A DNA stretch of 64,000 bases. It comes from Alteraurantiacibacter buctensis. GTDB taxonomy: Bacteria; Pseudomonadota; Alphaproteobacteria; Sphingomonadales; Sphingomonadaceae. A program made the translations under genes and the position numbers. Positions 1,130 through 34,499 of this stretch are shown here, piece after piece (position 1 is the first letter of the stretch; the number at the start of each line of letters is the position of its first letter). The stretch is taken from positions 372,657 through 436,656 of the forward strand of contig NZ_WTYV01000002.1 in the NCBI RefSeq assembly GCF_009827655.1, written 5' to 3'. Under the pieces are notes generated by a model. That model saw only the letters and a program-made list of their open reading frames with translations. It was not told the origin of the DNA and made no database searches.

Positions 1130-2087
1130 AGCCGAACGCCCTATGCTGGGCCGCGTGGCCCACGGCATCTTCTGGATGTACCGCTATCTGGAGCGGGCGG
1201 AGAACATCGCCCGCCTGCTGGCCGCCGCGCACCGCATGGCGCTGACCCGCGGGACGGACGAGGCGACTCAGGAGTGGCGGTCTGTCCTGACCACGCTGGG
1301 CCAGCTCCAGGCCTATGACAACCAGTACACCGTCTACGGCGGCGCGCAGGTGTGCGACTTCGTGCTGCGCGCGCGCGGCAACCCGCAAAGCGTGCTGTCG
1401 ATGTTCGAGCGTGCGCGGACCAATGCCCGCGCCTGCCGCAGCGCCATCACGCGCGAGGTGTGGGAAGCGATCAACGAAGGCTGGATGAACCTGAAGGAGC
1501 AGCTCAGCCGCCCGATCCGCGAGGGCAACCTGGAGACGGTTCTGGCCTCGATCCGCCGCGAATCGACGCTGGCGCGCGGGGCCACCCACGGATCGATGCT
1601 GCGCAACGAGATCTATGCTTTCGCGCGGCTGGGGACGTTCCTGGAACGGGCCGACAACACCGCCCGCATCCTCGATGTGAAGTATTTCCTGCTGCTGCCC
1701 AGCCTGTCCTACGTCGGCACCGCGCTTGATACCGGTCAGTGGGACAACGTGCTGCGCTCTCTATCTGGCGAGCGGGCCTATTCCTGGCTCAATGCCGGGC
1801 GCATGGATGCGCGGGGAATCGCCCAGTTCCTTATCCTGGACGAGCGCTTCCCGCGCAGCTTGGCATTCTGCCGCCTGGCCCTGCGCGAGAACCTGTCGGC
1901 GCTGGCCCGGTTGCGCGGACACGACGGGCTGCCGCACGCTGCGCTGGACCGGGTCGATGCCCTGATGGAAGGCCGCCGGGTGGAGGAGATCTTCGACAAC
2001 GGGCTGCACGAATTCATCGTCAAGTTCATCGGGCTCAACGCCGGCATTGCCGATGCCATCGCGCGCGAATACCGTTTCATTGCCTGA
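1122..2087 (+). CDS. Alpha-E domain protein (DUF403)
   Basis: The protein has 321 residues and begins MIEAERPMLGRVAHGIFWMYRYLERAENIARLL. The W-M-Y-R-Y-L-E-R-A-E-N motif marks the alpha-E family, an all-helical domain of unknown biochemical role. It is almost always encoded beside circularly permuted ATP-grasp and transglutaminase-like genes. Here it overlaps the ATP-grasp stop by 8 nt and is followed 20 nt later by the transglutaminase gene. The second half, with LGTFLERADNTARILDVKY, repeats the same helical signature. It probably acts with the ATP-grasp and transglutaminase partners; this is inferred from context only. Confidence 0.92.
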   Translation: MIEAERPMLGRVAHGIFWMYRYLERAENIARLLAAAHRMALTRGTDEATQEWRSVLTTLGQLQAYDNQYTVYGGAQVCDFVLRARGNPQSVLSMFERARTNARACRSAITREVWEAINEGWMNLKEQLSRPIREGNLETVLASIRRESTLARGATHGSMLRNEIYAFARLGTFLERADNTARILDVKYFLLLPSLSYVGTALDTGQWDNVLRSLSGERAYSWLNAGRMDARGIAQFLILDERFPRSLAFCRLALRENLSALARLRGHDGLPHAALDRVDALMEGRRVEEIFDNGLHEFIVKFIGLNAGIADAIAREYRFIA

Positions 2088-2107
2088 TTAGACCGGAAAG
2101 CCGATCC

Positions 2108-2923
2108 ATGCGCCTCGCCATCAGCCACACCACGCGTTATCGCTTCGAAGGGGCGGTGCTGCACGGTGTGCAGCGGCTGCGGCTGACGCCAAAGAGCACG
2201 CAGGGCCAGAAGATCATCGACTGGCGCATGGCCTATGACGGCGCGCACGAGGAACTGGCCTACGATGACCAGAACCACAATCACGTGACGCTGGTATCCG
2301 TGGTGCCGGGTGCGGCCGAAGTGGTGATTTCCTGCTCGGGCGTGGTGGAGACCGAGGACAAGGCGGGTGTCATCGGCCATCACGCCGGTCACCTGCCGCT
2401 GTGGTCGTTTCTCAGCCATACCCGCCTGACCCGGCCCGGTCCGCGCGTGCGCCAGGTACTGGCCCAGGTGGACCGACGCAGCGGGGACGTGCTGGCGGCG
2501 ATGCACCAGTTGTCCGCCGCGGTGCGCGGCCAGGTGGATTACATGGTGGGCGCAACCCAGGTCGAAACCACGGCCGAGGAGGCGCTGGCTGCCGGGGCGG
2601 GCGTGTGCCAGGACCATGCCCACGTGTTCATCGCCGCCGCCCGCGCGATGGACGTGCCGGCCCGCTATGTCAGCGGCTACCTGATGATGGATGACCGGGT
2701 GGACCAGGAAGCCACCCATGCCTGGGCCGAAGCCTGGGTTGAGGGGCTGGGCTGGGTCGGCTTCGATGTCGCCAACCAGATTTCACCCGATCCGCGCTAT
2801 GTGCGGGTTGCCACGGGCCGCGATTATCGCGATGCCGCCCCTGTCACCGGCGTCAGCTTCGGCGCGGCCATGGAAGACCTGCACGTGGCGCTGGCGGTGG
2901 AACAGCAATTCGTGGAACAATAG
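2108..2923 (+). CDS. Transglutaminase-like cysteine peptidase of the Anbu operon
   Basis: The protein has 271 residues and starts at ATG 2108, where the conserved N-terminus MRLAISHTTRYRFEG begins. It has the N-terminal beta domain of bacterial transglutaminase-like proteins, followed by the catalytic core. The triad is visible as Cys167 (GAGVCQDHAH), His204 (EATHAWAEAW) and Asp220 (GFDVANQ). The fold usually hydrolyses or forms amide bonds; no substrate is established for this subgroup. It lies between the alpha-E gene and the proteasome-like protease, the usual arrangement of Anbu loci. It lacks a signal peptide and is probably cytoplasmic. Confidence 0.92.
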   Translation: MRLAISHTTRYRFEGAVLHGVQRLRLTPKSTQGQKIIDWRMAYDGAHEELAYDDQNHNHVTLVSVVPGAAEVVISCSGVVETEDKAGVIGHHAGHLPLWSFLSHTRLTRPGPRVRQVLAQVDRRSGDVLAAMHQLSAAVRGQVDYMVGATQVETTAEEALAAGAGVCQDHAHVFIAAARAMDVPARYVSGYLMMDDRVDQEATHAWAEAWVEGLGWVGFDVANQISPDPRYVRVATGRDYRDAAPVTGVSFGAAMEDLHVALAVEQQFVEQ

Positions 2924-2971
2924 CCGCGCCGGCAAGCGAAGCGCGCGGCGAGGGGAGCGGAACGACAAGCG

Positions 2972-3721
2972 ATGACCTATTGCGTAGGCATGATCCTCGA
3001 CAAGGGGCTGGTGTTGATGAGCGACACCCGCACCAACTCGGGCGTCGACAACATCTCGGTGTTCCGCAAGATGTATCGCTGGAGCGTGCCGGGCGAGCGG
3101 GTGATCGCGCTGATGACGGCGGGCAACCTGGCCACCACCCAGGCCGTGGTCAGCAAGCTGCAGGAACGTACCAAGGCTCCCGCCGAGCGGCAGAACTCGC
3201 TGCTGGAACTGCCCACCATGTTCCAGGCCGCGACGGAAATCGGCAAGCTGCTGCGTGAGACGGTGCAGCAGACCCAGGCCGCCAACGGGCAGGAAGCCAG
3301 CGGGCGCTTTACGGCCAGCATGATCCTGGCCGGGCAGATCGCCGGCATGGAGCCGCGCCTGTTCATGATCTACCCGGAGGGCAACTTCATCGAGGCCAGC
3401 TTCGACACCCCGTTCTTCCAGATCGGCGAGACCAAGTACGGCCGCCCGATCCTGATCCGCGGCTATGACCGCGACATGAGCTTCGAGGATGCGGTGAAGC
3501 TGATGATGGTCAGCTTCGATTCCACGCTGAAGGCCAACCTCTCCGTCGGTCTGCCGCTGGATACCCTGGTGCTGGAACGCGATAATTTCGAGCCGGTGCA
3601 CGAGCGGCGGATCGAACATGACGATCCATACTTCGTTTCGATCTCCAACAGCTGGAGTAACGCGCTGCGCAATGCGTTTCATTCGCTGCCGGACTATAGC
3701 TTTTCGTCAACTAGGGATTAA
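2972..3721 (+). CDS. Anbu-type proteasome-like peptidase
   Basis: The protein has 249 residues with an Ntn-hydrolase fold. It begins MTYCVGMILDKGLVLMSDTRTNSGVDN, which places Thr2 at the N-terminus after Met removal, as in proteasome beta subunits, and shows the SDTRTN segment typical of Anbu. A GAGCGG-rich stretch precedes the ATG. Anbu is a proposed ancestral proteasome subunit that forms open helical rings. Its activity and substrates are poorly understood. Gene order ATP-grasp, alpha-E, transglutaminase, Anbu matches known Anbu operons, which suggests a shared peptide or amide-modifying function. There is no ClpX- or HslU-type ATPase nearby. Confidence 0.9.
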   Translation: MTYCVGMILDKGLVLMSDTRTNSGVDNISVFRKMYRWSVPGERVIALMTAGNLATTQAVVSKLQERTKAPAERQNSLLELPTMFQAATEIGKLLRETVQQTQAANGQEASGRFTASMILAGQIAGMEPRLFMIYPEGNFIEASFDTPFFQIGETKYGRPILIRGYDRDMSFEDAVKLMMVSFDSTLKANLSVGLPLDTLVLERDNFEPVHERRIEHDDPYFVSISNSWSNALRNAFHSLPDYSFSSTRD

Positions 3722-10592: not shown

Positions 10593-11642
10593 TCAGCGGC
10601 GCAGCACGCGCGCCAGGAAGGCATCCACCACGGGCGTTGCAGGATAGTCCGCCTCGCCCAGGTTGCGGTTGATCTGCATGTGGCCGCGCAGGCCCCGGCC
10701 ATCGAATCCTTGCACCATGGCGGGGGTGCCCGCACGCTCCAGCGCTGCGGCCAGTTCACGGCTCTGGCGTGCGCCGTCCGCGCGCTGAACGTGGAGAATC
10801 AGGAATTCCGGTGCATTCGGTCCGCCTGCGTGGAAGGTGGGGGAAAGCGCCCGCTGGCGCGCGGGATCGGTGCCGAAGGCTTGGGCATAGGTATCGCCCA
10901 TCAGGCGGGCGTTCTCGTCCATCTGGTCGGGCACGTTGTATGCTGCACCGTCCAGCGGCACGATCCCGCGCACGGCATCCATCGGCAGCCCGGCGGCGCG
11001 AAAGTATTGCGGGTCCGTCCCCACCAGGGCCACCAGGTGTGCGCCCGCGCTGTGGCCCACCAGCGCGATGCGATCCGCATCGAAGCCCAGCCGCGCGGCG
11101 TTGGCGCGCAGCCACGCCACGGCCCCAGCCACGTCCGCAGCCTGTTGCTCAACCGTGGCATCCGGGACCAGCCGGTAATTGATCGAGGCAACCGCATAGC
11201 CCGCCGCCTGCCAATGCTCCAGCTTGGCCGATCCGCGCATCATCTGCTTGTCGCCGCGCTTCCAGCCGCCGCCGTGAACGAAGACCACCAGCGGCGCACC
11301 GGCGCTGGCACCCGGCCAGTAGTCGAGCGCCTGCAGCGGATCGTTGCCATAGGCCATGGTCTGCATCGCCGGGTCCGGCGCGCTGCGTCCCGCGCGCCGC
11401 GCGCCATCGTTTCCTGCCCGCTGCTGGACCAGCGAGGCGATCTGCTGGCGGCACGGCTCGCTGAGGTTCTGCCGCTGCTCCACCAGGCAGGCGCGCACGG
11501 CGGCTCGATCGGTGCCGCACAGCGCGCGCACTTCCTGCCGGCAGGCGCGCGGCAGACGGTCCTGCGCCTGGGCGAAGGTGGCAAATCCGGTCGCGGTTAC
11601 GGCAAGGGCGATAAGCGGGATCAGGATGTGGCGACGGGGCAT
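10593..11642 (-). CDS. Secreted alpha/beta-hydrolase (esterase) with Cys-rich N-terminus
   Basis: The protein has 349 residues from ATG 11642. Residues 1-27 form a signal peptide ending near FAQAQ. Residues 30-85 are Cys-rich (RACRQEVRALCG, RACLVEQRQNLSEPCRQQI), resembling the GLG1/Cys-rich repeat also found in other bacterial secreted proteins. The hydrolase domain has the oxyanion motif HGGGW, the nucleophile elbow GHSAGAH and a late His (RGLRGHMQIN), as in the hormone-sensitive-lipase/BD-FAE group. It probably hydrolyses small esters in the periplasm; the substrate is unknown. An upstream ATG at 11678 would only add 12 residues before the signal. Confidence 0.85.
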   Translation of the reverse strand: MPRRHILIPLIALAVTATGFATFAQAQDRLPRACRQEVRALCGTDRAAVRACLVEQRQNLSEPCRQQIASLVQQRAGNDGARRAGRSAPDPAMQTMAYGNDPLQALDYWPGASAGAPLVVFVHGGGWKRGDKQMMRGSAKLEHWQAAGYAVASINYRLVPDATVEQQAADVAGAVAWLRANAARLGFDADRIALVGHSAGAHLVALVGTDPQYFRAAGLPMDAVRGIVPLDGAAYNVPDQMDENARLMGDTYAQAFGTDPARQRALSPTFHAGGPNAPEFLILHVQRADGARQSRELAAALERAGTPAMVQGFDGRGLRGHMQINRNLGEADYPATPVVDAFLARVLRR

Positions 11643-11720
11643 GGCACAAGGTCTCGGGCAAAGGACTGTTACCGGCATGACGCGGCACGCCGGAAAAGCC
11701 TTTGCGCGGGAATCAGAAAA

Positions 11721-14401: not shown

Positions 14402-14430
14402 TTGACACGATCTCTATATGTTCTCATTCT
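14402..14430 (+). promoter_or_regulatory. Candidate promoter of the MarR-type regulator
   Basis: A perfect -35 TTGACA (14402-14407) is followed after 17 nt by CATTCT (14425-14430). A start of transcription near 14437 would exclude the ATG at 14418 and support translation from 14457. Confidence 0.4.
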
Positions 14431-14456
14431 GTTCAAGCGAATCAGCGGGGATGATT

Positions 14457-15431
14457 ATGGGCCAAGCACAGTTCCTGTACGACACGGCACCGGATGCCGC
14501 CTTTGGCCTTGCTGCCTCGATCTTCGCAGATCGGGACGATGTTCGTATCCAGATGCGTGACGATGCGTTCGATTCCGGACTGGTCCTGCGCGAATGCGCG
14601 TCATTGCACGCCGTGCTGGCTGACGATCCCCGCCCGTTGGGAGACGTGGTGCTGCTCGACTGTCCGGCGCCGGACGGATCGGGGCTGGCGGCGCTTGCGC
14701 GGCTGGACGAGCGGGCGGCCCGCTCCGGTGCGGCGCTGGTGGTTTCTACCACGGTCGGCGGGCTGGAGGACGTGTTCGGCTGCCTGTCGCAGTCGGGTGC
14801 GCAAATCCTGGTCAACGCGCGGCGGGCAGATCGGGTCATCGCCCTGGGACAGGCCCTGGCCGGTGGTCGGGGGCACAGGGTGCGCGAGCTGTCGGACGAG
14901 GACCGGTTGACCCTGCTGCGGTTGACCGAGCAGGTCCATGCCATTTCCGAAAAGCTGGAGCGGCTGTCAGAAGAGGTTGATGAGGCTGCCGTTCGCAGCC
15001 CTGCCACTGCGTTCCGCTTTGGTGATGGCGCAGCGACTGCGGCATCTCCGGGTGATCGGCTGGTGCGGGCAGCGCGGCCGGCCTTACCTGATGCACGGCT
15101 GGTGCGGCGGATCATCCACCAGCGCCAGTTGCGCGCCCGGTTCTTCGATGGCGAGCTGTTTGCCGATCCCGCCTGGGACATGTTGCTCGACCTGACCGCC
15201 GCCCGCGTGGAGCACGCCCGGGTTTCGGTCACCTCGCTGTGCATCGCCTCGTCCGTGCCGCCCACCACGGCGCTGCGCTGGATCAGCCAGTTGACCGAGG
15301 CCGGGCTGTTCGAGCGAGTCGAGGACGAGACTGATCGGCGGCGTGCCTTCATCCAGCTGACCGACAAGGCCTGTGACGGCATGGCTCGCTACTTTGCCGA
15401 ACTGGGCAAGAGTGCCGCCGCGCTGGTCTGA
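14457..15431 (+). CDS. MarR-type winged-helix regulator with N-terminal pseudo-receiver
   Basis: The protein has 324 residues. Residues 1-130 resemble a receiver domain (VVLLDCPAPDGSGLAALARL) without partner kinase nearby. A short coiled helix follows (TEQVHAISEKLERLSEEVDEA). The last 110 residues form a MarR-like winged helix: VTSLCIASSVPPTTALRWISQL is the recognition region and VEDETDRRRAFIQLTDKA the wing. GCGGGG at 14445-14450 gives 6-nt spacing to ATG 14457. Such proteins recur in sphingomonads. It lies next to the RiPP cluster but on the other side of the sulfotransferase, so a regulatory link is only possible. Confidence 0.8.
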   Translation: MGQAQFLYDTAPDAAFGLAASIFADRDDVRIQMRDDAFDSGLVLRECASLHAVLADDPRPLGDVVLLDCPAPDGSGLAALARLDERAARSGAALVVSTTVGGLEDVFGCLSQSGAQILVNARRADRVIALGQALAGGRGHRVRELSDEDRLTLLRLTEQVHAISEKLERLSEEVDEAAVRSPATAFRFGDGAATAASPGDRLVRAARPALPDARLVRRIIHQRQLRARFFDGELFADPAWDMLLDLTAARVEHARVSVTSLCIASSVPPTTALRWISQLTEAGLFERVEDETDRRRAFIQLTDKACDGMARYFAELGKSAAALV

Positions 15432-15564: not shown

Positions 15565-16386
15565 TCAGGCGGGCTTGGCCTGCTCCATCAGGTAGCGCAG
15601 GACGAACTGTTCCGAATGCCCGTCTGCCTGCCGCTGCATCCTGGGCGGCGGCGGTTCTCCGCTGCTGCCGAGTTCGCGCAGTAAAGGCACCAGCGTGCCG
15701 CTGAAGTCGCGCACCAGGTCCTCATAAGCCAGCGCCCTGGATGATCCCGCATGTGCCAGCAGATTGCGCCAATGTGCGTTGCTCCAGTCGGCATAGGCGA
15801 TCTGGCGGCTGATCGCTTCGGCATCGTAGACGGGATCGGCGCGCCGCTGCATTTCAGCACCGGGAATTGAACGCCATTGTCCCGTCTGCTCCGCCACCAC
15901 CCCGGACACGGCCTGCCGCACCCGGTCGCGGCGGTAGAGATGGATAAAGGCGGGATTGGGCAGCAATTGCCCGATCAGCGCCAGCAGATCGCGGTAGGAT
16001 TCGGGCGACAGGGTTTGTGGGTCGGCCTGCCCGAGGTGACCAAATCGGCCAGGAGCAAGTTCGCAGGCAACGTCCACCACGTCGCGCCACATCAGTTTTA
16101 CCGAGAGAACCCCGGAAGGGTCGGTCCGGTTGCGCCACAGGGCTTCCACCAGACCCTCAAGCCCGGTGACATCCCAGATCTCCTCGAAGCGCGGCCGAAA
16201 GCCGGCATGGAGATATTCGAGCGGGCAGCCCAAGCCCCCAGCGAAGTACATGGCCTCGCCCAGCAGGGTGGAGCCGGATCGCGGTAGGGTGCAGATAACA
16301 AGACTGCGGCGCGGAGGACCCCTCCACGCCGCATAATCCCGTTCACGAGACGTCAGATCGTAATGTTTGCGCGCTTCAGCTGCCAA
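15565..16386 (-). CDS. Stf0-type sulfotransferase of the RiPP cluster
   Basis: The protein has 273 residues from a TTG start at 16386, preceded by GGAG at 7 nt; an in-frame stop upstream leaves no better start. The PAPS loop is residues 33-42 (CTLPRSGSTL), followed by PLEYLHAGF and a 3'-phosphate-binding segment YRRDRVRQAVSGVVAEQTGQW; YEDLV lies later. These match the Stf0 (trehalose 2-sulfotransferase) group. It lies 63 nt downstream of the precursor peptide on the same strand, so it probably sulfates the mature peptide. The core has Thr hydroxyls but no Tyr or Ser. Such sulfotransferases also act on sugars and lipids, so another acceptor is possible. Confidence 0.82.
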   Translation of the reverse strand: MAAEARKHYDLTSRERDYAAWRGPPRRSLVICTLPRSGSTLLGEAMYFAGGLGCPLEYLHAGFRPRFEEIWDVTGLEGLVEALWRNRTDPSGVLSVKLMWRDVVDVACELAPGRFGHLGQADPQTLSPESYRDLLALIGQLLPNPAFIHLYRRDRVRQAVSGVVAEQTGQWRSIPGAEMQRRADPVYDAEAISRQIAYADWSNAHWRNLLAHAGSSRALAYEDLVRDFSGTLVPLLRELGSSGEPPPPRMQRQADGHSEQFVLRYLMEQAKPA

Positions 16387-16449
16387 AGCCGGACTCCGAC
16401 AGCAATGATCACAAACTCAAACCAACGTATTCGCAACCTGATCCAAAAA

Positions 16450-16587
16450 TCAGGCGGTAAGGTTCACAGTGCCGTCGCCCACCTTGCCGGTGTTGTCGCC
16501 TTCAGCGGCTTCCACCGGCTTCAGCGAAACGATCTCGGGCTTCACCCACAGAGCCGAATCAGACTGTTGGTTGTTCTTGATCATCAT
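16450..16587 (-). CDS. Candidate lasso-type RiPP precursor peptide (45 aa)
   Basis: The small frame starts with ATG ATG (16587 and 16584) after GGGGAA; spacing favours the second ATG. The leader carries Trp14-x2-Pro17-x-Ile19-x2-Leu22 (LWVKPEIVSLKPVEAAE), the pattern bound by PqqD-like RRE proteins in lasso systems. The C-terminal part is GDNTGKVGDGTVNLTA. If Gly30 is core residue 1, Asp38 is residue 9 and a 9-residue macrolactam ring is possible; starting at Asp31 or Asn32 would give rings of 8 or 7. Unlike typical lasso precursors, position -2 is Ala28 instead of Thr, and the 7-residue tail has no aromatic plug. It is divergent from the cyclase operon and upstream of the sulfotransferase. 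Confidence 0.7.
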   Translation of the reverse strand: MMIKNNQQSDSALWVKPEIVSLKPVEAAEGDNTGKVGDGTVNLTA

Positions 16588-16655
16588 GGTTCCCCAATTA
16601 AACCTCATTATCGAACCGCACTCATGTCCGGCCGGAGTAGTTTGTCTCGGCTATC

Positions 16656-16684
16656 GCACTAGCATTGCTCCGATTTAGGGTCAA
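16656..16684 (-). promoter_or_regulatory. Weak candidate promoter of the RiPP precursor
   Basis: On the minus strand TTGACC (16684-16679) and TAGTGC (16661-16656) are separated by 17 nt. Transcription would begin near 16649, about 62 nt before the precursor. The -10 is poor. The 242-nt divergent gap 16588-16829 must also hold the promoter of the plus-strand operon. Confidence 0.3.
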
Positions 16685-16829
16685 TGCGCAGTGTGCCTAA
16701 GGGTTCCTGCCGAGGTAAGAAGGCAACTCTGTCACTAGATATTGGCAGGCTGGAAAATTGATCGCCTTGTCGTTGCGCGCGGCTGATTCGCCTTTATGCG
16801 GGCGGACTTGGCCGGAACGGGAGCAAACG

Positions 16830-17093
16830 GTGGAAACGATTCGCGTAGCACCCTGGATAAGCTGGGTACCGGACGCGGCCAGCCTTGTGCTGTTCGACGA
16901 GCGCGACTCAAGCTACCATGTGCTCAACGAGTCCGCTTCCCACATCTGGCGTTTGCTTGCCGCCGGGGAAGAGCAGGAGATGATCGTGGCTGCGCTTGGT
17001 GCCGATCACGGTTTGCCTGCCGATCAGGCTGCCGAAGCGATCGGGGACTTCGCAACCGCTGCGCTTGCCAAGGGGCTGCTCGTTGCCGAATAG
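16830..17093 (+). CDS. PqqD-like RRE protein, first copy (lasso B1-type)
   Basis: The protein has 87 residues from GTG 16830, which has GGGAG 6 nt upstream; a TTG at 16758 in frame lacks such a site and gives an unlikely Cys/Arg-rich extension. The sequence SLVLFDERDSSYHVLNESASHIWRLL is the PqqD winged-helix signature. In RiPP pathways such RRE proteins bind the leader peptide and bring it to the enzymes. It is the first gene of the plus-strand operon, 60 nt before the cyclase. A second, different PqqD-like gene follows the cyclase, so the two may serve different enzymes. Confidence 0.85.
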   Translation: METIRVAPWISWVPDAASLVLFDERDSSYHVLNESASHIWRLLAAGEEQEMIVAALGADHGLPADQAAEAIGDFATAALAKGLLVAE

Positions 17094-17153
17094 GTTACCG
17101 CTTCGCCCGGCAGGCCGGTGCGCCACAGCCAGACAAGGCCGGGTTTTGCCAGG

Positions 17154-19055
17154 ATGAGTGCGATCGCCGGGATCCTGGCACTGGATGAGCGGCCCATCGG
17201 CCAGGAGATGCTGGCGCGGATGCGCGCCGCAGCCCCGCCCCGGGGACTCGATGGCACGCAGGTGTGGCTGGAGGCCAATTTCGGCACGATCCGCCAGGCG
17301 AATGCCACCACGCCGCAAGCCGTTGGCGAACAGCAGCCCTTCACGGGTCCGTCGGGGGCCGTGGTCATGTTCGACGGGCGGCTGGACAACCGGTCCGATG
17401 TCCTTGCCCTGCTGGGACCGGCAGGTGGGCGGCTGGCGGAAGCACCCGACGGTGCGCTGGTTCTGGCGCTTTACGAGAAATTGGGCCGCGATTTTGTGCG
17501 GTCGCTGGTGGGCGATTTCGCCATCGCTATTTGCCATCCGCTCGAACGCCGCCTCGCCCTGTTCACATCCCCCCTCAACTGGCGACCGCTGCACTGGACC
17601 CGGCATGGCGCGCTGGTCGCCTTTGCCACCGACATGCGCACCCTGGTGCTTGGCCTGGGGCTTCAGCGGCAGGTGAACGAGGGGGCCTTTGCCGAGTTCA
17701 TGAGCGGCGTGATGATGTCGCCAACCGAGACCTTCCTCGCTGGCGTGGAGCGGGTGGAGCAGGGTTCGGCCGTGTTTTTTGAAGGCGAACGGACCGACGT
17801 GTGGCTGTGGCACGATGGCCCGTTCGAAGACTGGACCGGCCGGAGCATGGCGGACCACGTCGAGCATTTCAACGCGCTGTTCGATCAGGCCGTGGCGGCC
17901 GCATTTCGCAGCCATGGCGATGTTTCCGCGCAACTATCCGGCGGCCTCGATTCGTCCTCGGTCGTGTGCCGCGCCACCGAGCTTTACCGGGCAGGCCGGC
18001 TGGACCGGCAGGTGCGGGCAATCTCTGCCCGCTTCCCGGGTATGCCGCAGGACGAGACGCGCTGGTCGTCGGCGGTGGAGGACCATCTGGGGATAAGGGC
18101 CGAGGTCGCCACGGCCAAGCCATTCTCGCTGGAAGCGGCGCGGCAATGGACCGCCAGCACCTGGCACCTGCCGCTGCGGCCCAATGCCCTCGACACGATG
18201 GGTGGGGTCGTCGACATCATGCGCGCTGATGGCCGGCGGGTGCTGCTGGGAGGTGAGGGCGGGGATGACTGGCTGAACGGTTCGCTGGCGCACCTGCCCG
18301 ACCTGCTGCGTCGCGGCCGGCTTGGCGGGCTGGCTGAGTTCGGTCGCACCTATTTTCCGCGCGATTCGGTGCCCGTGCAATGGGCCAAGGCGCTGGTCCT
18401 GGCCGGGCGGCCCCTGGTAATCCCGGAATACCGGCGCGAGATCCTCTATCCCGCAATCGACTGGAACCGGGCCAGCGCACCCTGGCTACGGCCGGAATGG
18501 ACCCGCAACACGGACCTCGCCGACCGGCTGCAGGGCACCCCAACCCGCCCCGGGCTGCAGGGGTTTACCCAGCGCTCCCGCTATTCCACCTATGCCAATG
18601 GCGTTCGCCAGATGCTCGCCGCGCCGGTCGTGGCCTACATGGAGCAGTTCGGGATTGAGTGGCGCCACCCGCTGCACGATGCGCGCCTGACGGGCTTTTG
18701 CATGGGCGCATCGGGCAACCATCTGCGCAACCGGGAAACGCGCAAGATGATCCTGCGCGAAGCCATGCGCGGCACCTTGCCGGAAGTTGTCCGCATGCGC
18801 TCGGACAAGGCGGCCTTCTACGTCAACACGATAGCGGCCATGGAGGACATCCTGCGCGAACGGCCGTTCCGAGACACCCTGCCGGCCAGGATGGGCTGGG
18901 TCGATGCAAAGCAGTTGGAGGCGCTCTACGCACCTGTCCGGGCCTGGGATCCTGGCGGTGACCGGGCAAACTTGCCATCGGCGCCTTATGGGCCGATCTG
19001 GTTTGTGCTTGCGGCCGACATGTGGTTGGATCAGGCATTCGGTTCAACAATCTGA
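17154..19055 (+). CDS. Asparagine-synthetase-like lasso cyclase
   Basis: The protein has 633 residues from ATG 17154 (MSAIAGILALDERPIG). The N-terminal domain has the class II glutaminase fold but no Cys at position 2, so it should not hydrolyse glutamine, as is usual in lasso cyclases. The synthetase domain keeps the ATP motif SGGLDSSS at 262-269 and GEGGDDW near 367-373. Its expected reaction is to adenylate the side-chain carboxylate of an Asp or Glu in the core and let the N-terminal amine close the ring. Neighbouring RRE proteins and leader peptidase support this role over primary asparagine synthesis. Confidence 0.88.
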   Translation: MSAIAGILALDERPIGQEMLARMRAAAPPRGLDGTQVWLEANFGTIRQANATTPQAVGEQQPFTGPSGAVVMFDGRLDNRSDVLALLGPAGGRLAEAPDGALVLALYEKLGRDFVRSLVGDFAIAICHPLERRLALFTSPLNWRPLHWTRHGALVAFATDMRTLVLGLGLQRQVNEGAFAEFMSGVMMSPTETFLAGVERVEQGSAVFFEGERTDVWLWHDGPFEDWTGRSMADHVEHFNALFDQAVAAAFRSHGDVSAQLSGGLDSSSVVCRATELYRAGRLDRQVRAISARFPGMPQDETRWSSAVEDHLGIRAEVATAKPFSLEAARQWTASTWHLPLRPNALDTMGGVVDIMRADGRRVLLGGEGGDDWLNGSLAHLPDLLRRGRLGGLAEFGRTYFPRDSVPVQWAKALVLAGRPLVIPEYRREILYPAIDWNRASAPWLRPEWTRNTDLADRLQGTPTRPGLQGFTQRSRYSTYANGVRQMLAAPVVAYMEQFGIEWRHPLHDARLTGFCMGASGNHLRNRETRKMILREAMRGTLPEVVRMRSDKAAFYVNTIAAMEDILRERPFRDTLPARMGWVDAKQLEALYAPVRAWDPGGDRANLPSAPYGPIWFVLAADMWLDQAFGSTI

Positions 19056-19069
19056 TACTGCGGTAGATT

Positions 19070-19360
19070 ATGACAGATACCATTGACCTGAACCCGGGCA
19101 CCCAAATCAGCCGCAGCGACAATATCGCCGCCGTCGACGTGTCCGAGGAGGCGATCCTGCTCGACGTCGACAGCGGGTATTTCTTCCAGCTCAACCGGAC
19201 GGCGGCCAGCATCTGGCGGCTGGTCGAGGAGCCGCGCTCGTTTGCCGACCTGTGCGTCGCGCTGCAGCAGGAGTTTCCCGGTGCCGGTGATGCGCTGGCA
19301 GAGGATGTGCACGGCTTCGTGGTTGACTTGGCTCAGCGGCGTGTCCTGCACCTGGCGTGA
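19070..19360 (+). CDS. PqqD-like RRE protein, second copy (lasso B1-type)
   Basis: The protein has 96 residues. The core, AILLDVDSGYFFQLNRTAASIWRLVEE, is the PqqD signature, with the usual C-terminal helices (ALAEDVHGFVVDLAQRRVL). It is clearly distinct in sequence from the copy at 16830. It starts 14 nt after the cyclase and lies upstream of the leader peptidase, the normal place for the B1 protein of split lasso systems. It is the better candidate to pair with the peptidase; the other copy may serve the cyclase or a tailoring enzyme. Confidence 0.87.
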   Translation: MTDTIDLNPGTQISRSDNIAAVDVSEEAILLDVDSGYFFQLNRTAASIWRLVEEPRSFADLCVALQQEFPGAGDALAEDVHGFVVDLAQRRVLHLA

Positions 19361-19459
19361 CAACGGGACATTAGGGCTGCGCCGGATGCCCTCGCATTGA
19401 CACCGCCGGTCCAATGGTCGATCCGGCAGGCCTGCCCGATCGATTGGTTGTAGCCTTTC

Positions 19460-19933
19460 ATGAAGTTCCGTACCGGCCTGTTATCCCTCGTGATCGCGCA
19501 GCGGCGCCACCTGCCGCTGGTGGCGGAAGCTCTGGTTGCGGTGACGCTGGCGGGGCTGGCCATCCGGTTATGGTCCTTCAGCCGCATCCTTGAATCGATG
19601 GGCAGGGCCCCATCCGCTGCGGCGCTGTCAGCCGCAGAGCGCGCGGCGGTCGGCGCGCGGATCGGCTGGGCGGTGCCTGCTGCGGCGAAGCGCCTGCCCT
19701 GGCGGGCGACCTGCTTTCCGCAGGGCCTGGCCGCGCAGTGGATGCTGCAACGGCGGGGGATTGCAGGCACCTTCTATTATGGCGCCTCGATCACCGGAGC
19801 GAGCCTGGACGCGCACGTGTGGGTGATGGACGGCGAGCGCGCGATCGTGGGGTTTAGGGAGGCATCGGCCATGCGCACCCTGGTACAGGTGACAGCCGGT
19901 GAGCGCCCGGCACCGGAAGGCCGCGTGGCGTGA
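19460..19933 (+). CDS. Transglutaminase-fold leader peptidase (lasso B2-type)
   Basis: The protein has 157 residues. A hydrophobic stretch at about 18-40 precedes the catalytic core (transglut_core3 type). Cys85 lies in WRATCFPQGLAAQWMLQRRG, and His119 in DAHVWVMDG with an acidic residue just after; this is the usual Cys-His-Asp arrangement of lasso B2 peptidases, which cut the leader before cyclisation. The upstream ribosome site is weak and 99 nt separate it from the second RRE gene. Its stop overlaps the next start (GTGA), so the nucleotidyltransferase is coupled to it. Confidence 0.88.
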   Translation: MKFRTGLLSLVIAQRRHLPLVAEALVAVTLAGLAIRLWSFSRILESMGRAPSAAALSAAERAAVGARIGWAVPAAAKRLPWRATCFPQGLAAQWMLQRRGIAGTFYYGASITGASLDAHVWVMDGERAIVGFREASAMRTLVQVTAGERPAPEGRVA

Positions 19934-21177
19934 GCGTGCCAGTGGACGCAGGCCCGGTTGCGGTGGCCGATCCGGCGGCGCTGCTGCTGCTGGGCTGCTC
20001 GCTGCCGCAGGACCTGTTCGCGCCGGGCCGGTTGCGCGAACTGGCAGGGCAGGTGGACGACTGGGACAGCCTGCTTGTCCGGGCCGGCGGGCACCTTGCC
20101 ATTCCCTTCCTCCACGCCCGGCGTGGTGAACTGGCGGACCTTGCCCCGGAAGGCTGGAGCGAGCGGCTGGAGCGGGCCTTCCGCGTGGGCGCGGCACAGA
20201 ACCTGCGGATCGCGGCCCTGCTGGTCCGTCTGCACCGGACCCTCTTCGTACCGCAGGGTATTGCCTATGCCGCAGTCAAGGGGGTGACCCTGGCGCAGCG
20301 CTATTACGGCGGCCTGCCGGCCCGCGCCTGCCGCGATCTTGACCTGCTCGTCGATCCGCCGGCCTGCCCGGCCACCATCGGCTGGATGCTGGACAACGGC
20401 TTCCGCCTGGTCGGCTCGCTGGAGGTTACCGGCGAGGGGGCTGAGCGCGAGCGCCAGATTGTTGCCATGTGCGATCTCAACCGCGAGATTTCGCTGCGCT
20501 CGCCCGATGGCGACCTGGTGGATGTGCATTCCACGCTGGACCTCACCGGGGCTGACTTCCCGACCGCGCGCCTGCTGGCCGGTGCGGAGCAGATGACGCT
20601 GCTGGGCACCCCGGTCTTCACCCTGTCGGGGCCGGACCTGCTGGTTTACCTGTGCTATCACCACAGCCGCCACAACTGGACGCGGCTGCACTGGGTGTCG
20701 GACATGGGACAGGTTGCCCGATCGCCGGACATTGCGCCCGAGGCCCTGCGGGCGAGCGCCGCGCGCAGCGGGATGGAGGAGCTGGTCGAGGCCTGTCGGG
20801 CGATGATCCCGCTGCTGGCAGCGGTCGTCAACGGCCAGCAGCCGCAGCTGGCCGGCCTGGCCGGCACCATGGTGCAGGAATGCCTGACCTTCCTGGCGCC
20901 CGATGCCGTGGCCCCGCTGCTGGAATACAACCTGCGATTGCAGGACAAGGGTTTCCGCTGGCGCTACTGGTTTGCCCAGACTGCCACCGAATGGCGCCAG
21001 CGCAAGGGGCTGGTGCGCAAGGGGCGGGCGCTGGTGCGCAGCGCCACTCCGTCGTGGGACATGTACCAGGCCATGCCCCTGCCACGCGGATTGCGCTGGC
21101 TGTACCTGCCGCTGCGGGCAGGCGCACAACTGGTGCGGCATACACCCCTTGGGGCGTTATTCGGGCGGAAGAACTAG
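19930..21177 (+). CDS. Nucleotidyltransferase family protein (PF14907 type), RiPP tailoring
   Basis: The protein has 415 residues from GTG 19930. The segment AAVKGVTLAQRYYGGLPARACRDLDLLVD (about residues 115-142) carries Lys117 and the Asp136-x-Asp138 pair expected to bind metal and NTP in the minimal nucleotidyltransferase fold. The family is common in lasso and related RiPP clusters; one member is known to alter a lasso peptide in the pseudomycoidin system. Its precise chemistry here is inferred. It ends the plus-strand operon, and its stop overlaps that of the convergent kinase-like gene. Confidence 0.82.
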   Translation: MSVPVDAGPVAVADPAALLLLGCSLPQDLFAPGRLRELAGQVDDWDSLLVRAGGHLAIPFLHARRGELADLAPEGWSERLERAFRVGAAQNLRIAALLVRLHRTLFVPQGIAYAAVKGVTLAQRYYGGLPARACRDLDLLVDPPACPATIGWMLDNGFRLVGSLEVTGEGAERERQIVAMCDLNREISLRSPDGDLVDVHSTLDLTGADFPTARLLAGAEQMTLLGTPVFTLSGPDLLVYLCYHHSRHNWTRLHWVSDMGQVARSPDIAPEALRASAARSGMEELVEACRAMIPLLAAVVNGQQPQLAGLAGTMVQECLTFLAPDAVAPLLEYNLRLQDKGFRWRYWFAQTATEWRQRKGLVRKGRALVRSATPSWDMYQAMPLPRGLRWLYLPLRAGAQLVRHTPLGALFGRKN

Positions 21178-22112
21178 GCGTTCGCGTCCAGCGCTGCCTC
21201 GATTGCTTCGGACACCGCCCCGTACCCTGCAAAGCCCGGCGGATAGCGCAGGGTGAAGGCGGGCACCGCGCCCAGCATGCTGTTCAGTTCGGTAAGCGAG
21301 AAAACCCGCTCCGCGTTGCCCGATCCACTGGGATTGAACAGCACCAGTTGCTGCATCGCCTGGCGCATGGCTTCCCCCCGGCTGATGGGAATCGCCACCG
21401 GCGCGGGACAATCTGCCCGCTCCACGAAGAACACCCCCCGCACCGGAGCTTCCCCGTCACCGGGACGTGCCATGCAGTCGAGCCGCACTGCGTTTTTCCC
21501 GGCGTAGCCCTGCAGCGGGGTGAAGCTGGCGGGCGGCAGGGCAAAGTTGTCACTGCTTTGCGGCCAGACGGCCACGTCCGATCCGGCGGGCTCGATCAGC
21601 CAGCGCCCGTTGTCGGGCCAGACCAGCGCCATGTCGTCCCCCAGGATCCGCCAGCCTGCGGTAAGGCCCAGGCCCAGGGTCATGGTGGACTTGCCGGCAC
21701 CCGAATGCCCCATCAGCAGGATGCCGCGCCCGTTTCGGACCAGCGATCCCGCATGATAGGTGTGGCCGCCGTGCAGCTTGACCACGCGCGGAAGGACCCG
21801 GCGCGAGACGAGATCCTTGAAGAACACCTCGTCCTGCCCCTCGATGAACAGGTGCAGGCTGCGCCCGTCGCGCGAGATGCGCAAGGCGCCTTCAGGGATG
21901 TGCACGCGCCAGTCATTGCCGGTGGTGCCAAGGCGCATCCCGAAGCGGCCGATGAAGGCATAGACGCAGGTATCTTCGGGCGGAGCGGCTCCGTCAGCGC
22001 GCGTCATCGCCAGTTCGCTGCGGGTTACGGCCCCGGGAACAGTCTCGTGCAGGCGCGCAAAGGGCGTGTCGGAGGTGATGGCGATGCCGCCGAAGTGATA
22101 CCGGAATGTCAC
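21174..22112 (-). CDS. HPr-kinase-like protein, RiPP tailoring
   Basis: The protein has 312 residues from a GTG at 22112, with GGCGGAG upstream; a longer reading would run through the tRNA-Val gene and is rejected. It has the P-loop GHSGAGKS at 135-142 and the Asp pair DD at 159-160 of the HPr kinase C-terminal domain. Homologues in lasso clusters (PadeK type) phosphorylate the C-terminal Ser of the peptide. The core here ends in Thr44-Ala45, so Thr44 is a possible target. No HPr gene is near. It is convergent with the nucleotidyltransferase gene and starts 40 nt from tRNA-Val. Confidence 0.8.
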   Translation of the reverse strand: MTFRYHFGGIAITSDTPFARLHETVPGAVTRSELAMTRADGAAPPEDTCVYAFIGRFGMRLGTTGNDWRVHIPEGALRISRDGRSLHLFIEGQDEVFFKDLVSRRVLPRVVKLHGGHTYHAGSLVRNGRGILLMGHSGAGKSTMTLGLGLTAGWRILGDDMALVWPDNGRWLIEPAGSDVAVWPQSSDNFALPPASFTPLQGYAGKNAVRLDCMARPGDGEAPVRGVFFVERADCPAPVAIPISRGEAMRQAMQQLVLFNPSGSGNAERVFSLTELNSMLGAVPAFTLRYPPGFAGYGAVSEAIEAALDANA

Positions 22113-22152: not shown

Positions 22153-22228
22153 TGGTGGGCGGTAACGGGCTCGAACCGCTGACCCTCTCGGTGTAAACGA
22201 GATGCTCTACCAACTGAGCTAACCGCCC
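22153..22228 (-). tRNA. tRNA-Val (anticodon UAC)
   Basis: The minus strand folds as a complete 76-nt tRNA with encoded CCA. The acceptor arms are GGGCGGT and ACCGCCC with discriminator A; the D loop is TTAGCTCAGTTGGTAGAGC and the T arm GTTCGAACCC. The anticodon loop TTTACAC gives anticodon UAC, reading Val codons. It flanks the RiPP cluster. Confidence 0.96.
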
Positions 22229-31300: not shown

Positions 31301-32433
31301 GGGCGGGCGGCCTGCCAGGCGTTCACCCGCCGCGCCACGTCGGCCCGCAGGTTGGCCCAGAACAGCGGGATATCGTACACGTGATAGTTGTTGCCCGGCA
31401 GCACATAGCTGCCCATTTCGGGCGGGTCGCCGATCAGCAGCAGGCCCTGGCGGTCGCAGACGGCAGGAACCGCACCCGGCACCAGGTCGCCCGAGGTCAG
31501 CTCGGCATTGGGCACCAGCGTGCCCAGGTTTGCCGCCATGTCCGCCTGCCCGTTGGCCGATCCGGTGAGCGGGTTGACGCACAGGATCGGGCTGTCACCC
31601 CGCAGCACGCCATCAAGCCCGGGCGAGGCGCGGTACTGTTCCAACATCATGCCGGGTTCGGCTTCCTTGGCGAAGCTGGCCCAGGAGACGAGGCAGGCGG
31701 GCTGGTCAGGCGCGGCGCAGGCGGGCAGTGGCAGGCGCGGCAGGTCATGCTCCACGCTGATCGGCCAACCGACGGGATAGACGGCGGCGAGGCGGCCCTG
31801 CAGCGGGGTGCCGGCCACCTTCTCGCGCAGCAGGCGCAGCACGTGGGCCGCCCCCTGGCTGTGCCCGGCCAGCACGATCGGCCGGTCCTGCGCCACGGTG
31901 GCCACGAAGTAGTCGAAGGCCAGCGCCACATCGGCATAAGCCGCATCGAGCGACTGGCCCGCAGCCGGTTCCTCGGCCAGGAACGAGCCGAAGGTTGCCT
32001 GCCGGTAGCGCGGCGCCCAGATTTCCGCCGCCCGGTTGAACGGGCTGGCCATGCCGGCCACGAATGTCTCGGCAATCCGGCGGCTGTCCGCATCGTCCAG
32101 CGGCGCGTTCCACGCGGCGCGCGAATAGAAGCTGGTGGGGTGGACGAAGAACACCGCGAAGGGAGGGGTTACCGGCGGCTGGGGCGGGGCGGTGAAGCCT
32201 TCGCGCACCTGCGGTTCCCACAGGGCGGGATCGTTGCCAGCGCCCATGCCGGGGCGGCTGATCCACATGGCGGGATCGGCATAGGCGTTGTGGGCCAGAG
32301 CCTGCGGTCCGGTAAACTCGGCCGAGGGGACCATGGCCAGCCGGGTCAGCTCCTCGCCGTAAAGCCGCAAGGCCAGCAGCACGCCCAGCGCCAGCAGGAT
32401 GCCGAAGACGATGAAATAGAGAAACTTACGCAT
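31297..32433 (-). CDS. DUF3089 alpha/beta-hydrolase
   Basis: The protein has 378 residues with a signal anchor at 1-24 (FLYFIVFGILLALGVLLAL). DUF3089 marks are AVFFVHPTSFYSRAAWNAPL, the nucleophile elbow VLAGHSQGAAHVLRLL and YHVYDIPLFWANLR with the late His. The usual catalytic Ser is in GHSQG. Its substrate is unknown; the active site should face the periplasm. The gene overlaps the ends of both neighbours, so it is cotranscribed. Confidence 0.85.
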   Translation of the reverse strand: MRKFLYFIVFGILLALGVLLALRLYGEELTRLAMVPSAEFTGPQALAHNAYADPAMWISRPGMGAGNDPALWEPQVREGFTAPPQPPVTPPFAVFFVHPTSFYSRAAWNAPLDDADSRRIAETFVAGMASPFNRAAEIWAPRYRQATFGSFLAEEPAAGQSLDAAYADVALAFDYFVATVAQDRPIVLAGHSQGAAHVLRLLREKVAGTPLQGRLAAVYPVGWPISVEHDLPRLPLPACAAPDQPACLVSWASFAKEAEPGMMLEQYRASPGLDGVLRGDSPILCVNPLTGSANGQADMAANLGTLVPNAELTSGDLVPGAVPAVCDRQGLLLIGDPPEMGSYVLPGNNYHVYDIPLFWANLRADVARRVNAWQAARP

Positions 32434-33565
32434 GGACCTGCCCCGGCGGCGGGTCCACCCGGTCCGGCGCGCGGCCCTCGTGCGGCGGGTGCCCGCCCTG
32501 TCCGGCGGTGCGCGCGGCGCGGTGTTCCAGCGCCACCTTGATCATTGCCAGCAGCGGATCTGCCAGGAACAGGCCGATGATGCCGAACAGGATGCCCATG
32601 ATGAGCTGGAAGGCCAGCACCAGCGCGGGGGCCAGGTCCACCGTCTTCTTGGCGATCAGCGGGATGATCACATAGCCGTCGAAGGTCTGCACCACGAAGT
32701 AGACGAGGATGGTGTAAAGCCCCATCTCGTAGCCGCCGGAAAAGCCCACCAGCACCATCAGGATGCCGGAGATGAAGGCCCCGATATTGGGGATGAAGGC
32801 GAGCAGGCCGGTCAGGATCGAAAGCAGCGCCGCCATCGGCACGCCGTAGATGGCCAGCATGGCATAGGTCAGGATGCCTTCGAAGACCATGCCCACCAGG
32901 CGGCCGAACATCAGGCGACGCATGGTGAAGGCCATGTCGCTCATCAGATCGTGGAATTCGGCGCGCTTCTTCTGCGGCAGCATCCAGGCCATGCCGCGTT
33001 CGTAGAGGCGCGGCTCCATAGCCACGTAGAGGCCCATGATAAGCACCAGCACAACGGTGGTCAGCGCCCCCAGGATGCCACCAAGCGCACGCGTAACCGT
33101 GCCGACTCCGCTGGCTGCCTGGCCCAGGAAACCCTGCAGGTCGGCAATTTCCATCGCGAAGCCCTGCGACGATGCCCAGTCAGCCGCGCGGCGGGCCTGT
33201 GCCTCGATCAACATGGGCAGTTGCGCGGCTTCGCGGCTGATCTGGTTGCCGGCAAACATCGTCAGCCAGACCATGAAGGCGATCGAGGCCAGCACCACGA
33301 TGGCGATGCGCCAGCCGCGTCCGACCGGCAGCACGCGGCCCAGCAGGCGCGCGCCGCCGTCAATCATTGCGGCGAAAACCATGGCGCCGAAGATCACCAG
33401 CAGGCTTTGCGAGATGTAGACCGCCAGCACGGCCAGCCCCACCATGGCGATCCACACCCCGGCGCGGGTGATTTCGTGCCGCACGGCGGGGTTGGTGAAG
33501 GTGGCGGGGCTGGCGCCCAGCGGCTTGGCCTCGTCCTGCGGGCGGCTGCCAGTCTCGTCACTCAT
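32426..33565 (-). CDS. AI-2E family transporter (membrane)
   Basis: The protein has 379 residues from ATG 33565, which overlaps the lepB stop. It has seven to eight membrane segments, with the family signatures LLAFIPNIGAFISGILMVLVG, FDGYVIIPLIAKKTVDLAP and LFGIIGLFLADPLLAMIKV. The family exports varied small molecules and includes Na+/H+ exchangers; the quorum-signal name is not a reliable guide. A charged C-terminal tail (PPHEGRAPDRVDPP) overlaps the start of the DUF3089 gene. Confidence 0.9.
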   Translation of the reverse strand: MSDETGSRPQDEAKPLGASPATFTNPAVRHEITRAGVWIAMVGLAVLAVYISQSLLVIFGAMVFAAMIDGGARLLGRVLPVGRGWRIAIVVLASIAFMVWLTMFAGNQISREAAQLPMLIEAQARRAADWASSQGFAMEIADLQGFLGQAASGVGTVTRALGGILGALTTVVLVLIMGLYVAMEPRLYERGMAWMLPQKKRAEFHDLMSDMAFTMRRLMFGRLVGMVFEGILTYAMLAIYGVPMAALLSILTGLLAFIPNIGAFISGILMVLVGFSGGYEMGLYTILVYFVVQTFDGYVIIPLIAKKTVDLAPALVLAFQLIMGILFGIIGLFLADPLLAMIKVALEHRAARTAGQGGHPPHEGRAPDRVDPPPGQVHA

Positions 33566-34499
33566 TCCCGGCACTCCCTTGCGTTAGCGGATTCGGCCCT
33601 TGCACAGAAGGATTCAGGGGTGGTCGCAGGCTGGTCCAGGCGCGATCCGGGCGCAAGGCCGGCAACCAGGTAAGCGGGTTATAGCTGGACTGGCCGTCAA
33701 GGCTGAAGGTGATGAACTCGGCCCGCCCGCCGATGTCGCTGATCGGCACTGCGCCGCCCAGGCCGTTGCCGAATGGCGGGCCGGGGGCGCGGCTGTCGGC
33801 CGAATGGTCGCGGTTGTCGCCCATCAGGAACACGTAGCCTTCGGGAATGGTCATCTCGCCAAAGGTGTCGAGCGGCTGGTTGACGTGGTCGATCACCAGG
33901 TAGGTCGCCCCGTTGGGCAGGGTTTCCTGCCAGGTCTGCGGCTCATAGACCTGCTCGCCGCTTTCCAGCCGGCGCAGGCTGCCGGCGAACACGTCAAGGC
34001 ACGGGCGGCCGTCGCACTGGTTCTGGTTGGCGGCAGGCAGGCGCACCGGGGGCACCAGCTCGCGCTTGATTGGCTGGCCGTTGAGCACGATGCGCCCTTC
34101 CACCACGGCGATCCGGTCTCCCGGCAGGGCCACCACGCGCTTGATGTATTCGGTGAGGGGGTAGGAACCCTCGGGCGGCATGGTGACCACGATATCACCG
34201 TATTCGGGCATGGCCGGGGCAATCCGCCAGGTATCGCGGCGCATGGGGTGGAAGGACAGCGACGACCAGTTCCAGCCATAGGGATACTTGCTCACCACCA
34301 GCCGGTCGCCCACCAGCAGGGTGGGGATCATGCTGCCGCTGGGGATGTAGAACGGCTTGGCCACGAAGCTGTGGAAGGCAAGCACGCCCAGCAGCATCAG
34401 CACCAGGCCGCGCAGTTCGGCCAGCCAGTTGACCTTGGCCCGGGGCTTGTCGGCGGGGACCGCAGCAGGGGCGGGAGTGGCGATATCGGCCTCGCTCAT
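33558..34499 (-). CDS. lepB: Signal peptidase I
   Basis: The protein has 313 residues. One membrane segment ([18 protein letters not shown]) anchors it. The catalytic Ser is in [22 protein letters not shown] and the Lys base in [26 protein letters not shown] is box E. It removes signal peptides on the periplasmic face of the inner membrane. An insertion rich in Pro and Asn ([20 protein letters not shown]) carries two Cys residues. It overlaps acpS and the transporter gene. Confidence 0.95.

Follow-up and report, generated by a model that had tools for sequence, protein, structure and literature searches.

What does a compact locus of the sphingomonad Alteraurantiacibacter buctensis produce, when lasso peptide genes stand there beside three group-transfer enzymes? 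The locus occupies positions 15565–22112 of a 64,000-nucleotide stretch of contig NZ_WTYV01000002.1 (positions 372,657 to 436,656), referred to here in its whole length as the window. A preliminary description had read it as a lasso-type cluster for a ribosomally synthesized and post-translationally modified peptide (RiPP) with an unusual set of tailoring enzymes. Its eight compact genes were all confirmed from open reading frames (ORFs), Pfam and NCBIfam profiles and motifs, and every component named earlier is present. The minus strand carries the lasso precursor A (16450..16584, 44 aa; leader ...WVKPEIVSLKPVEAAE, core GDNTGKVGDGTVNLTA; database copy P0121), a Stf0-type sulfotransferase dependent on 3′-phosphoadenosine 5′-phosphosulfate (PAPS) (15565..16386, 273 aa, TTG start; PF09037, E 8.5e-28) and an HprK-like peptide kinase K of the PadeK/BsfK kind (21174..22112, GTG start; PF07475, E 1.4e-4, under the cut-off), for which the end at 22112 was as previously described. 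The plus strand carries a PqqD-like RiPP recognition element protein, RRE1 (16830..17093; PF05402, E 3.3e-11; likely GTG start at 16830, in an ORF open from TTG 16758), the AsnB-like lasso cyclase C (17154..19055, 633 aa, MSAIAG start; PF00733, E 4.1e-33), a second, B1-type PqqD-like protein, RRE2 (19070..19360; PF05402, E 2.9e-15), the leader peptidase B2 of transglutaminase fold (19460..19933; NF033537, 63.2 bits, cut-off 33) and the NTP_transf_5 nucleotidyltransferase N (19930..21177; PF14907, E 1.9e-33; RDLDL motif). On this evidence the locus very probably makes a small lasso peptide decorated with phosphate, sugar or nucleotide, and sulfate. Judged by sequence comparison, it belongs to a scattered sphingomonad family in which optional decorating enzymes come and go with matching core residues.

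For comparison, 25 loci from 18 genomes were used, namely the window and 24 further loci from 17 genomes (L027–L030 and L051–L070); L001 and L059 (genome G842) are one contig and were counted once. A gene was scored as absent if the stretch taken held no match above 60 bits, and contig ends bound the stretches of L056, L064 and L066. A matching short precursor was found in 24 of the 25 loci, the window included, L061 being the exception. Each of the 26 precursors has its core start 16 residues after the Trp of a WxxP[EQ] motif, an anchor and offset that were read off the precursor sequences themselves. Position −1 is Glu, Gln, Arg or Lys throughout, position +1 is Gly in 20, Ala in four, Ser in one and Asn in one, and the single acid among core positions 7–9 is Asp, at position 8 in 23 precursors and at position 9 in three. 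An RRE-binding leader motif, a residue-1 amine and an acid within positions 7–9 are therefore found at fixed spacing in 26 of 26, and the register is convincing because the Thr(−2), Ala1 or Ser1, and Asp8 or Asp9 of distant members fall into one frame. Position −2 is Ala in 20 precursors and Thr in six; the window has Ala and so departs from Thr(−2). Ile(−2) has been shown for BsfA, and Thr(−2) is thus not strict; the same paper also notes Ile or Val at −2 in Sphingomonadales, and Ile, Val or Ala as predicted by others (PMC10368454). The window core GDNTGKVGDGTVNLTA would form a ring from Gly1 to Asp9 (GDNTGKVGD) with the tail GTVNLTA. When a set of 5.8 billion proteins was searched with the precursor, the window's own protein alone was returned, in a type of search that short words limit. 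Two loci, L051 (5972–6713) and L052 (5837–6200), each hold two tandem precursors that differ at core position 3 (Phe/Ser and Ala/Ser, respectively).

The lasso reading had been staked in the preliminary description on two points, conserved short precursors at homologous loci and a cyclase distinct from primary AsnB enzymes, and it survived on both. The 25 cluster cyclases form one branch (support 100/100), and the MCGIAG amidotransferase of the window's own genome (L002) lies outside it on a long branch; within it, the window cyclase is sister to that of L027 (95/89), with L051 next (100/100). The tree contains no experimentally proven lasso cyclase, and L002 is the sole row in it seen with the glutaminase Cys, the N-terminus being unresolved in L010, L011 and L074. 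The window cyclase is without this residue (Cys2), as are several other paralogues in the tree, and is thus a Cys-less AsnB-like protein apart from primary amidotransferases. It fails the models for primary AsnB and XrtA amidotransferases, having no Cys and scoring 166.6 bits (cut-off 267.1) and 107.6 bits (cut-off 816.9), respectively, and just two distant matches to it were found in the PDB. Further Cys-less AsnB-like paralogues in the window's genus and in relatives (L010–L025; e.g. MSGIAAIF...) are perhaps other lasso cyclases. The remaining core functions are represented by the two PqqD matches and by B2, which exceeds its curated cut-off and whose Cys85/His119/Asp124 were assigned by motif.

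The strongest new result is a match between enzymes and core residues across the relatives. In these counts one precursor per locus was used, and the second ones of L051 and L052 (both of which keep Arg) and locus L061 were omitted. Association P values treat related loci as independent, and parsimony counts on the FastTree cyclase tree are the better guide. A PRMT7-like methyltransferase gene adjoins 11 of the 24 precursors (L027, 11067–12161; L028, 2929–3990; L051–L058; L060), all with Arg in the core, and is absent beside the other 13, none of which has Arg; the protein tested (L054) had PRMT7 (4c4a) as its best PDB match, with E 2.1e-34. Gene and core Arg change four times each on the cyclase tree, and the pair also changes four times. 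Lys takes the place of Arg in the L059 core, GISFKPND; no methyltransferase adjoins this precursor, nor was one found anywhere in genome G842 at E<=1e-15. The match holds for precursor-adjoining genes, not for whole genomes, because non-cis paralogues exist: the 18 genomes hold 25 methyltransferase-like places, 11 in cis (49–100% identical to the L054 query) and 14 elsewhere (37–47%), and three genomes, G842 among them, have none. A supposed absence from the window genome proved wrong, as a paralogue of 39% identity is found there (G000:C10:350163), next to rpoC-/rplJ-like genes (by eye). Three of the four non-cis places read adjoin ribosomal or RNA polymerase genes (by eye), and PRMT-like paralogues with such neighbors were seen at L084 (8631–9668, own genome), L085 (8597–9643) and L086 (3665–5047).

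A second match concerned a 2-oxoglutarate (2OG)–Fe(II) oxygenase, the gene for which lies next to Stf0 or A in L027 and L052–L060 (PF13640; L054 and L059 tested). It adjoins ten of the 24 precursors, all with [RK]P at positions 5–6, and is absent beside 14, none with [RK]P; gene and motif show four joint changes on the cyclase tree. The [RK]P rule was chosen after the data had been seen, and plain ring Pro fits less well (10/0/4/10). Together, the two matches imply that the methyltransferase and the oxygenase would act on the matched core residues, and the former predicts arginine-methylated lasso peptides. A search of open-licence full texts for lasso peptides with an arginine methyltransferase, where absence is weak evidence, gave one unrelated preprint only. 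L027 has both genes, with Arg5 and Pro6, in otherwise the window's gene order; the window has neither gene adjoining and neither Arg nor [RK]P, and it retains the NLTA end along with Stf0, K and N. A B12 radical S-adenosylmethionine enzyme also lies beside the lasso genes of L052, L053, L055 and L057–L060 (TIGR03975 RiPP C-methyltransferase, over the cut-off; L057 tested), and no target residue for it was found.

In the window itself, the enzymes to be assigned to acceptor residues are K, N and Stf0, and the candidates for phosphate in the core are Thr4, Thr11 and Thr15. K contains GHSGAGKS, an upstream His and GDD, and so carries the H...GxxGxGKS...DD motif given for lasso kinases of the PadeK/BsfK type (PMC10368454); N is presumed to have a role like that of PsmN and BsfN. 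The four loci with K but without Stf0 and N (L029, L030, L068 and L069) have a tail Ser and no ring hydroxyl, which agrees with phosphorylation at the C-terminus, known from paeninodin and SyanA (PMC9266682). The window and L027 share a position-4 hydroxyl (Thr or Tyr) and the NLTA end. From these shared features and the tail Ser of the K-only loci, the comparison suggests that K and N act on the C-terminal Thr (Thr15) and, with less certainty, Stf0 on the ring.

The sulfotransferase contains PRSGST and RRDRVRQAVS, motifs which we take to bind PAPS. An AlphaFold2 model built from 46 proteins (predicted local distance difference test score 93.2) had Stf0 itself (1tex) as its best PDB match by Foldseek (E 1.1e-10, 23% identity, template modeling score 0.59–0.61 by query length), followed by human tyrosylprotein sulfotransferases (5.3e-5). 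Domain, motifs and fold thus place the protein in the Stf0 family; against the trehalose sulfotransferase model NF047724 it scored 79.6 bits (cut-off 400), outside that equivalog. Database matches to the cyclase (best 120 of 598) and to Stf0 (best 120 of 674) had 29 source contigs of equal size in common, compared with a mean of 0.54 and at most 4 when sizes were shifted by 1–60, which points to tight linkage of the two genes in metagenomes. Among the 24 precursor loci, Stf0 and a ring hydroxyl beyond position 1 occurred together in 18 and were both absent in four, with one locus having Stf0 alone and one the hydroxyl alone. Of the five loci without Stf0, only L059 has a ring hydroxyl, that of Ser3; position 4 bears a hydroxyl in 13 of the 19 loci with Stf0 and in none of these five. 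These counts argue, less surely than in the case of K and N, that Stf0 sulfates a ring hydroxyl, the site being proposed from correlation only. Tyr4 was ruled out as a general sulfate site, since the window, L062–L067 and L070 have Stf0 and no Tyr. Loci without K and N had seemed to prove that Stf0 needs neither, an argument weakened by K-like and N-family genes elsewhere in the genomes checked.

Beyond the genes, their motifs, the precursor register and the enzyme–residue match, which are observed, the order of steps and the enzyme activities can be sketched only by analogy with characterised relatives. RRE2, and perhaps RRE1, would bind the leader at the W-x-x-P motif, and K would phosphorylate the linear precursor, with RRE assistance, at the C-terminal Thr (NLT, Thr15). 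B2 would then cleave after ...AAE, and C would activate Asp9 and link it to the Gly1 amine, closing a nine-residue ring around the tail GTVNLTA. N would place a hexose or nucleotidyl group on the phosphate, and Stf0, with PAPS as donor, would most likely sulfate a ring hydroxyl (Thr4). Predicted neutral masses are 1499.72 for the bare lactam, 1579.68 with SO3, 1579.69 with HPO3, 1741.74 with HPO3 and hexose, and 1821.70 with all three. This account as a whole, a lasso peptide with K and N acting at Thr15 and a ring sulfate added by Stf0, is favored with moderate confidence.

Several observations weigh against it. Two gene changes on the tree underlie the association of Stf0 with a ring hydroxyl; in L066 Stf0 is present and the sole ring hydroxyl is that of Ser1, and six of the 19 Stf0 loci have no position-4 hydroxyl, so that Thr4 in particular is weakly supported. 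BsfK phosphorylates Ser3 of its core (PMC10368454), so K need not act C-terminally, and the last Thr of the window core is penultimate, not terminal. The methyltransferase was scored beside the precursor only, and the window genome, like others whose cores have no Arg, encodes paralogues at other places. The cyclase reaches 224.8 bits on its best model, the NCBIfam lasso cyclase model (cut-off 525), and the Cys-bearing L002 scores 260 on the same model; this score is not discriminating and was dropped as proof. The tail is without Trp, Phe, Tyr, His, Arg or Lys in 20 of the 26 precursors, and a stably threaded lasso is therefore not assured. No exporter was found among 20 flanking ORFs between 50 and 34499 that were compared with Pfam (limit E 1e-5; 4 of the 20 without a match).

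Stf0 could instead sulfate the sugar added by N in the same lasso cluster, giving a phosphate–hexose–sulfate chain at the C-terminal Thr and leaving the ring untouched, an account that we consider unlikely. The characterised Stf0, the best structural match, is a trehalose sulfotransferase, PsmN puts hexoses on phosphorylated pseudomycoidin (PMC8498205), with a host glycosyltransferase not excluded in the available part of a second paper (PMC9266682), and all 19 Stf0 loci have Ser or Thr at or next to the C-terminus. On the other side, five of the 19 (L060 and L063–L066) have no N in the stretch taken, which is weak as a counterpoint given N-family genes elsewhere in all five genomes (G785, G665, G623, G629 and G836). 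The four loci without a ring hydroxyl lack Stf0 despite having K and a tail Ser, but they are also without N and so do not decide the matter.

The same short tails bear on whether the ring is threaded at all. An ATP-dependent cyclase could make an unthreaded macrolactam, or another lactam or ester, and hence a branched cyclic peptide and not a lasso, in keeping with the absence of bulky tail residues from most precursors and with the position of the cyclase under all model cut-offs. This is improbable, as position 1 and Asp8/9 obey the lasso rule in every precursor, RRE, B2 and C constitute the lasso triad, and the missing bulk could come from K, N or sulfate. That the AsnB-like amidotransferase, PqqD, HprK-like and nucleotidyltransferase genes serve exopolysaccharide or an HPr-rel-A type system and no peptide pathway is very hard to credit, for the matches to HPr-rel-A families TIGR04352/TIGR04353 and to the XrtA amidotransferase model are weak and all under cut-off (PqqD_rel_X 22.1 bits, cut-off 35; HprK_rel_A 42.9 bits, cut-off 200), B2 is over its own, the precursor is conserved, and none of the eight genes is for glycan synthesis.

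A wider synthesis is offered tentatively and is doubtful in its entirety. It envisages a sulfated lasso peptide whose ring carries sulfate and whose C-terminal Thr carries a phospho-hexose (or phospho-nucleotidyl) group. With no bulky side chain in the tail to lock the threaded form, what K and N attach would itself be the stopper. The family would then be modular, each acceptor residue being gained and lost along with its enzyme (kinase, sulfotransferase, arginine methyltransferase or 2OG oxygenase), and N, B2, K and RRE1, half of the pathway, could be encoded elsewhere in the genome.

Such a division of the pathway was looked at through B2, which is encoded in 18 of 18 genomes and lies beside the precursor in seven of 24 loci. 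Of ten other B2 stretches, seven have no precursor, cyclase or kinase adjoining, and three (L074, L076 and L077) have other RRE, kinase-like or cyclase-like genes. Orphan B2 genes (L071–L073, L075 and L078–L080) occur in genomes with one or more cyclase loci that are without B2, and they possibly serve in trans. Genomes G842 (L081, 17–3171, a stretch that begins at a contig end) and G836 (L082, 7083–10119) have an N-B2-K cassette with RRE1 and no C or A in the stretch read; A, RRE2 and C are elsewhere, in L059 of G842 and, together with Stf0, in L066 of G836. The cassettes have on one side a patatin-like neighbor (by eye) in common with the full cluster L067 of G785, and thus look like remnants of a fuller cluster, which we infer may now serve in trans. 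A strict division of labor, RRE1 with K, N and B2 and RRE2 with C, A and Stf0, was suggested by L066 with L082 and L059 with L081 and was rejected as a rule: K occurs without RRE1 in L029, L030, L057, L058, L068 and L069, and C, A and Stf0 occur without RRE2 in L062–L064. The role of each of the two RREs could nonetheless be approached through the split pathways.

With regard to distribution, the cyclase family is rare and scattered. Matches at E<=1e-90 were found in 15 of 295 genomes of one related genus (g91), in six of 396 drawn across the order and in one of 385 drawn across the class (the window genome); at E<=1e-60, they were found in one of 195 genomes of another related genus (g96) and in one of 40 of the window's own genus, which is the window genome itself. 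In a draw across the family, 20 of 397 genomes matched at E<=1e-30, four of them at 1e-90 or better (G000, G172, G155 and G011). A comparison with plasmids gave 194 records, all below 60% identity and at most 27% among the best 20 of 194. The locus is more than a chance assembly, because L027 keeps the window's gene order, with two extra genes and proteins 42–57% identical one by one, and because all precursors found share the leader and core register.

Among the 24 precursor loci, Stf0 occurs in 19, K in 21, N in 14, RRE1 in 14, RRE2 in 21 and B2 beside A in seven; all eight window families occur together in five (the window, L027, L028, L067 and L070). The three group-transfer enzymes that had made the tailoring set seem unusual are indeed present, and the set is less exceptional than supposed, since Stf0, K and N are found together in 14 of the 24. 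What is new is the sphingomonad family and its enzyme–residue match, not the enzyme set. The family offers a short, defined substrate and close relatives a few residues and one enzyme apart, so that acceptor sites are directly testable.

To our knowledge, a sulfated lasso peptide has not been described before. None is mentioned, by word search, in a 2026 review of interlocked peptides (PMC13352647), and none appears in a title among the matches listed for open-licence papers (14 of 15 for a narrower query and the best 20 of 3,915 for a broader one, the latter a weak test). Open-licence full texts likewise gave no report of sphingomonad or Novosphingobium lasso tailoring or sulfotransferases, where absence is again weak evidence. 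The three group-transfer enzyme genes had been noted before in Gram-positive lasso clusters: HprK-like kinase and sulfotransferase genes in 2014, with the sulfate target unnamed in the part available (PMC4289311), and HPr kinase genes and putative sulfotransferase and nucleotidyltransferase genes in a review of Firmicutes clusters (PMC8498205); the occurrence of all three in one cluster is not stated in the portions available. A table for Pontixanthobacter/Allopontixanthobacter gives, under gene-cluster numbers that are nearly consecutive, a lasso B2, a nucleotidyltransferase, a sulfotransferase, an Asp beta-hydroxylase, PqqD and an asparagine synthase-related protein, with no lasso peptide discussed in the part available (PMC10040529).

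Isopeptidase-type proteobacterial lasso clusters such as those of astexin and sphingopyxin follow the lasso logic in the same bacterial group. Unlike them, and as previously described, the window has no prolyl-oligopeptidase-type isopeptidase or TonB receptor, and no ATP-binding cassette (ABC) transporter, among the same 20 flanking ORFs. An alpha/beta-hydrolase (10593–11678) and an AI-2E family transporter (32426–33574) are in the window, and neither adjoins the cluster. The window Stf0 resembles trehalose 2-sulfotransferase Stf0 (1tex) in fold and PRSGST motif but differs in falling under the NF047724 cut-off and in its linkage to peptide genes. Bacillota clusters (paeninodin, pseudomycoidin; PMC8498205, PMC9266682) likewise have split B1/B2, a cyclase, an HprK-like kinase, a nucleotidyltransferase and in some cases a sulfotransferase; the window differs in phylum, in having two RREs and no ABC transporter seen, in Ala for Thr at −2 and in a Thr-Ala end for Ser. 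The bsf cluster of Bradymonas sediminis shares A, B1, B2, C, K and N, the kinase motif and a non-Thr residue (Ile) at −2, and differs in the action of BsfK on core Ser3, in having a transporter and in listing no sulfotransferase in the part available (PMC10368454). SyanA/SyanK of Sphingobium yanoikuyae, compared by description only, is likewise a sphingomonad lasso precursor with an HprK-like kinase, SyanK polyphosphorylating the C-terminal Ser; unlike in the window, no sulfotransferase or nucleotidyltransferase is named in the available part (PMC9266682).

The cluster is bordered by a tRNA-Val(TAC) gene (22153..22228, minus strand) that adjoins K at the locus edge, outside the pathway, with adenylosuccinate synthetase upstream and a pyrroloquinoline quinone (PQQ) dehydrogenase downstream. 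A 337-aa protein with a MarR-like C-terminal winged helix is encoded at 14418–15431, convergent with Stf0; weak relatives of it lie beside lasso genes in L028 (~40 bits) and beside the orphan B2 of L075 (72 bits). Farther away, positions 50–3721 of the window hold adjoining genes for circularly permuted ATP-grasp, Alpha-E and proteasome-fold proteins.

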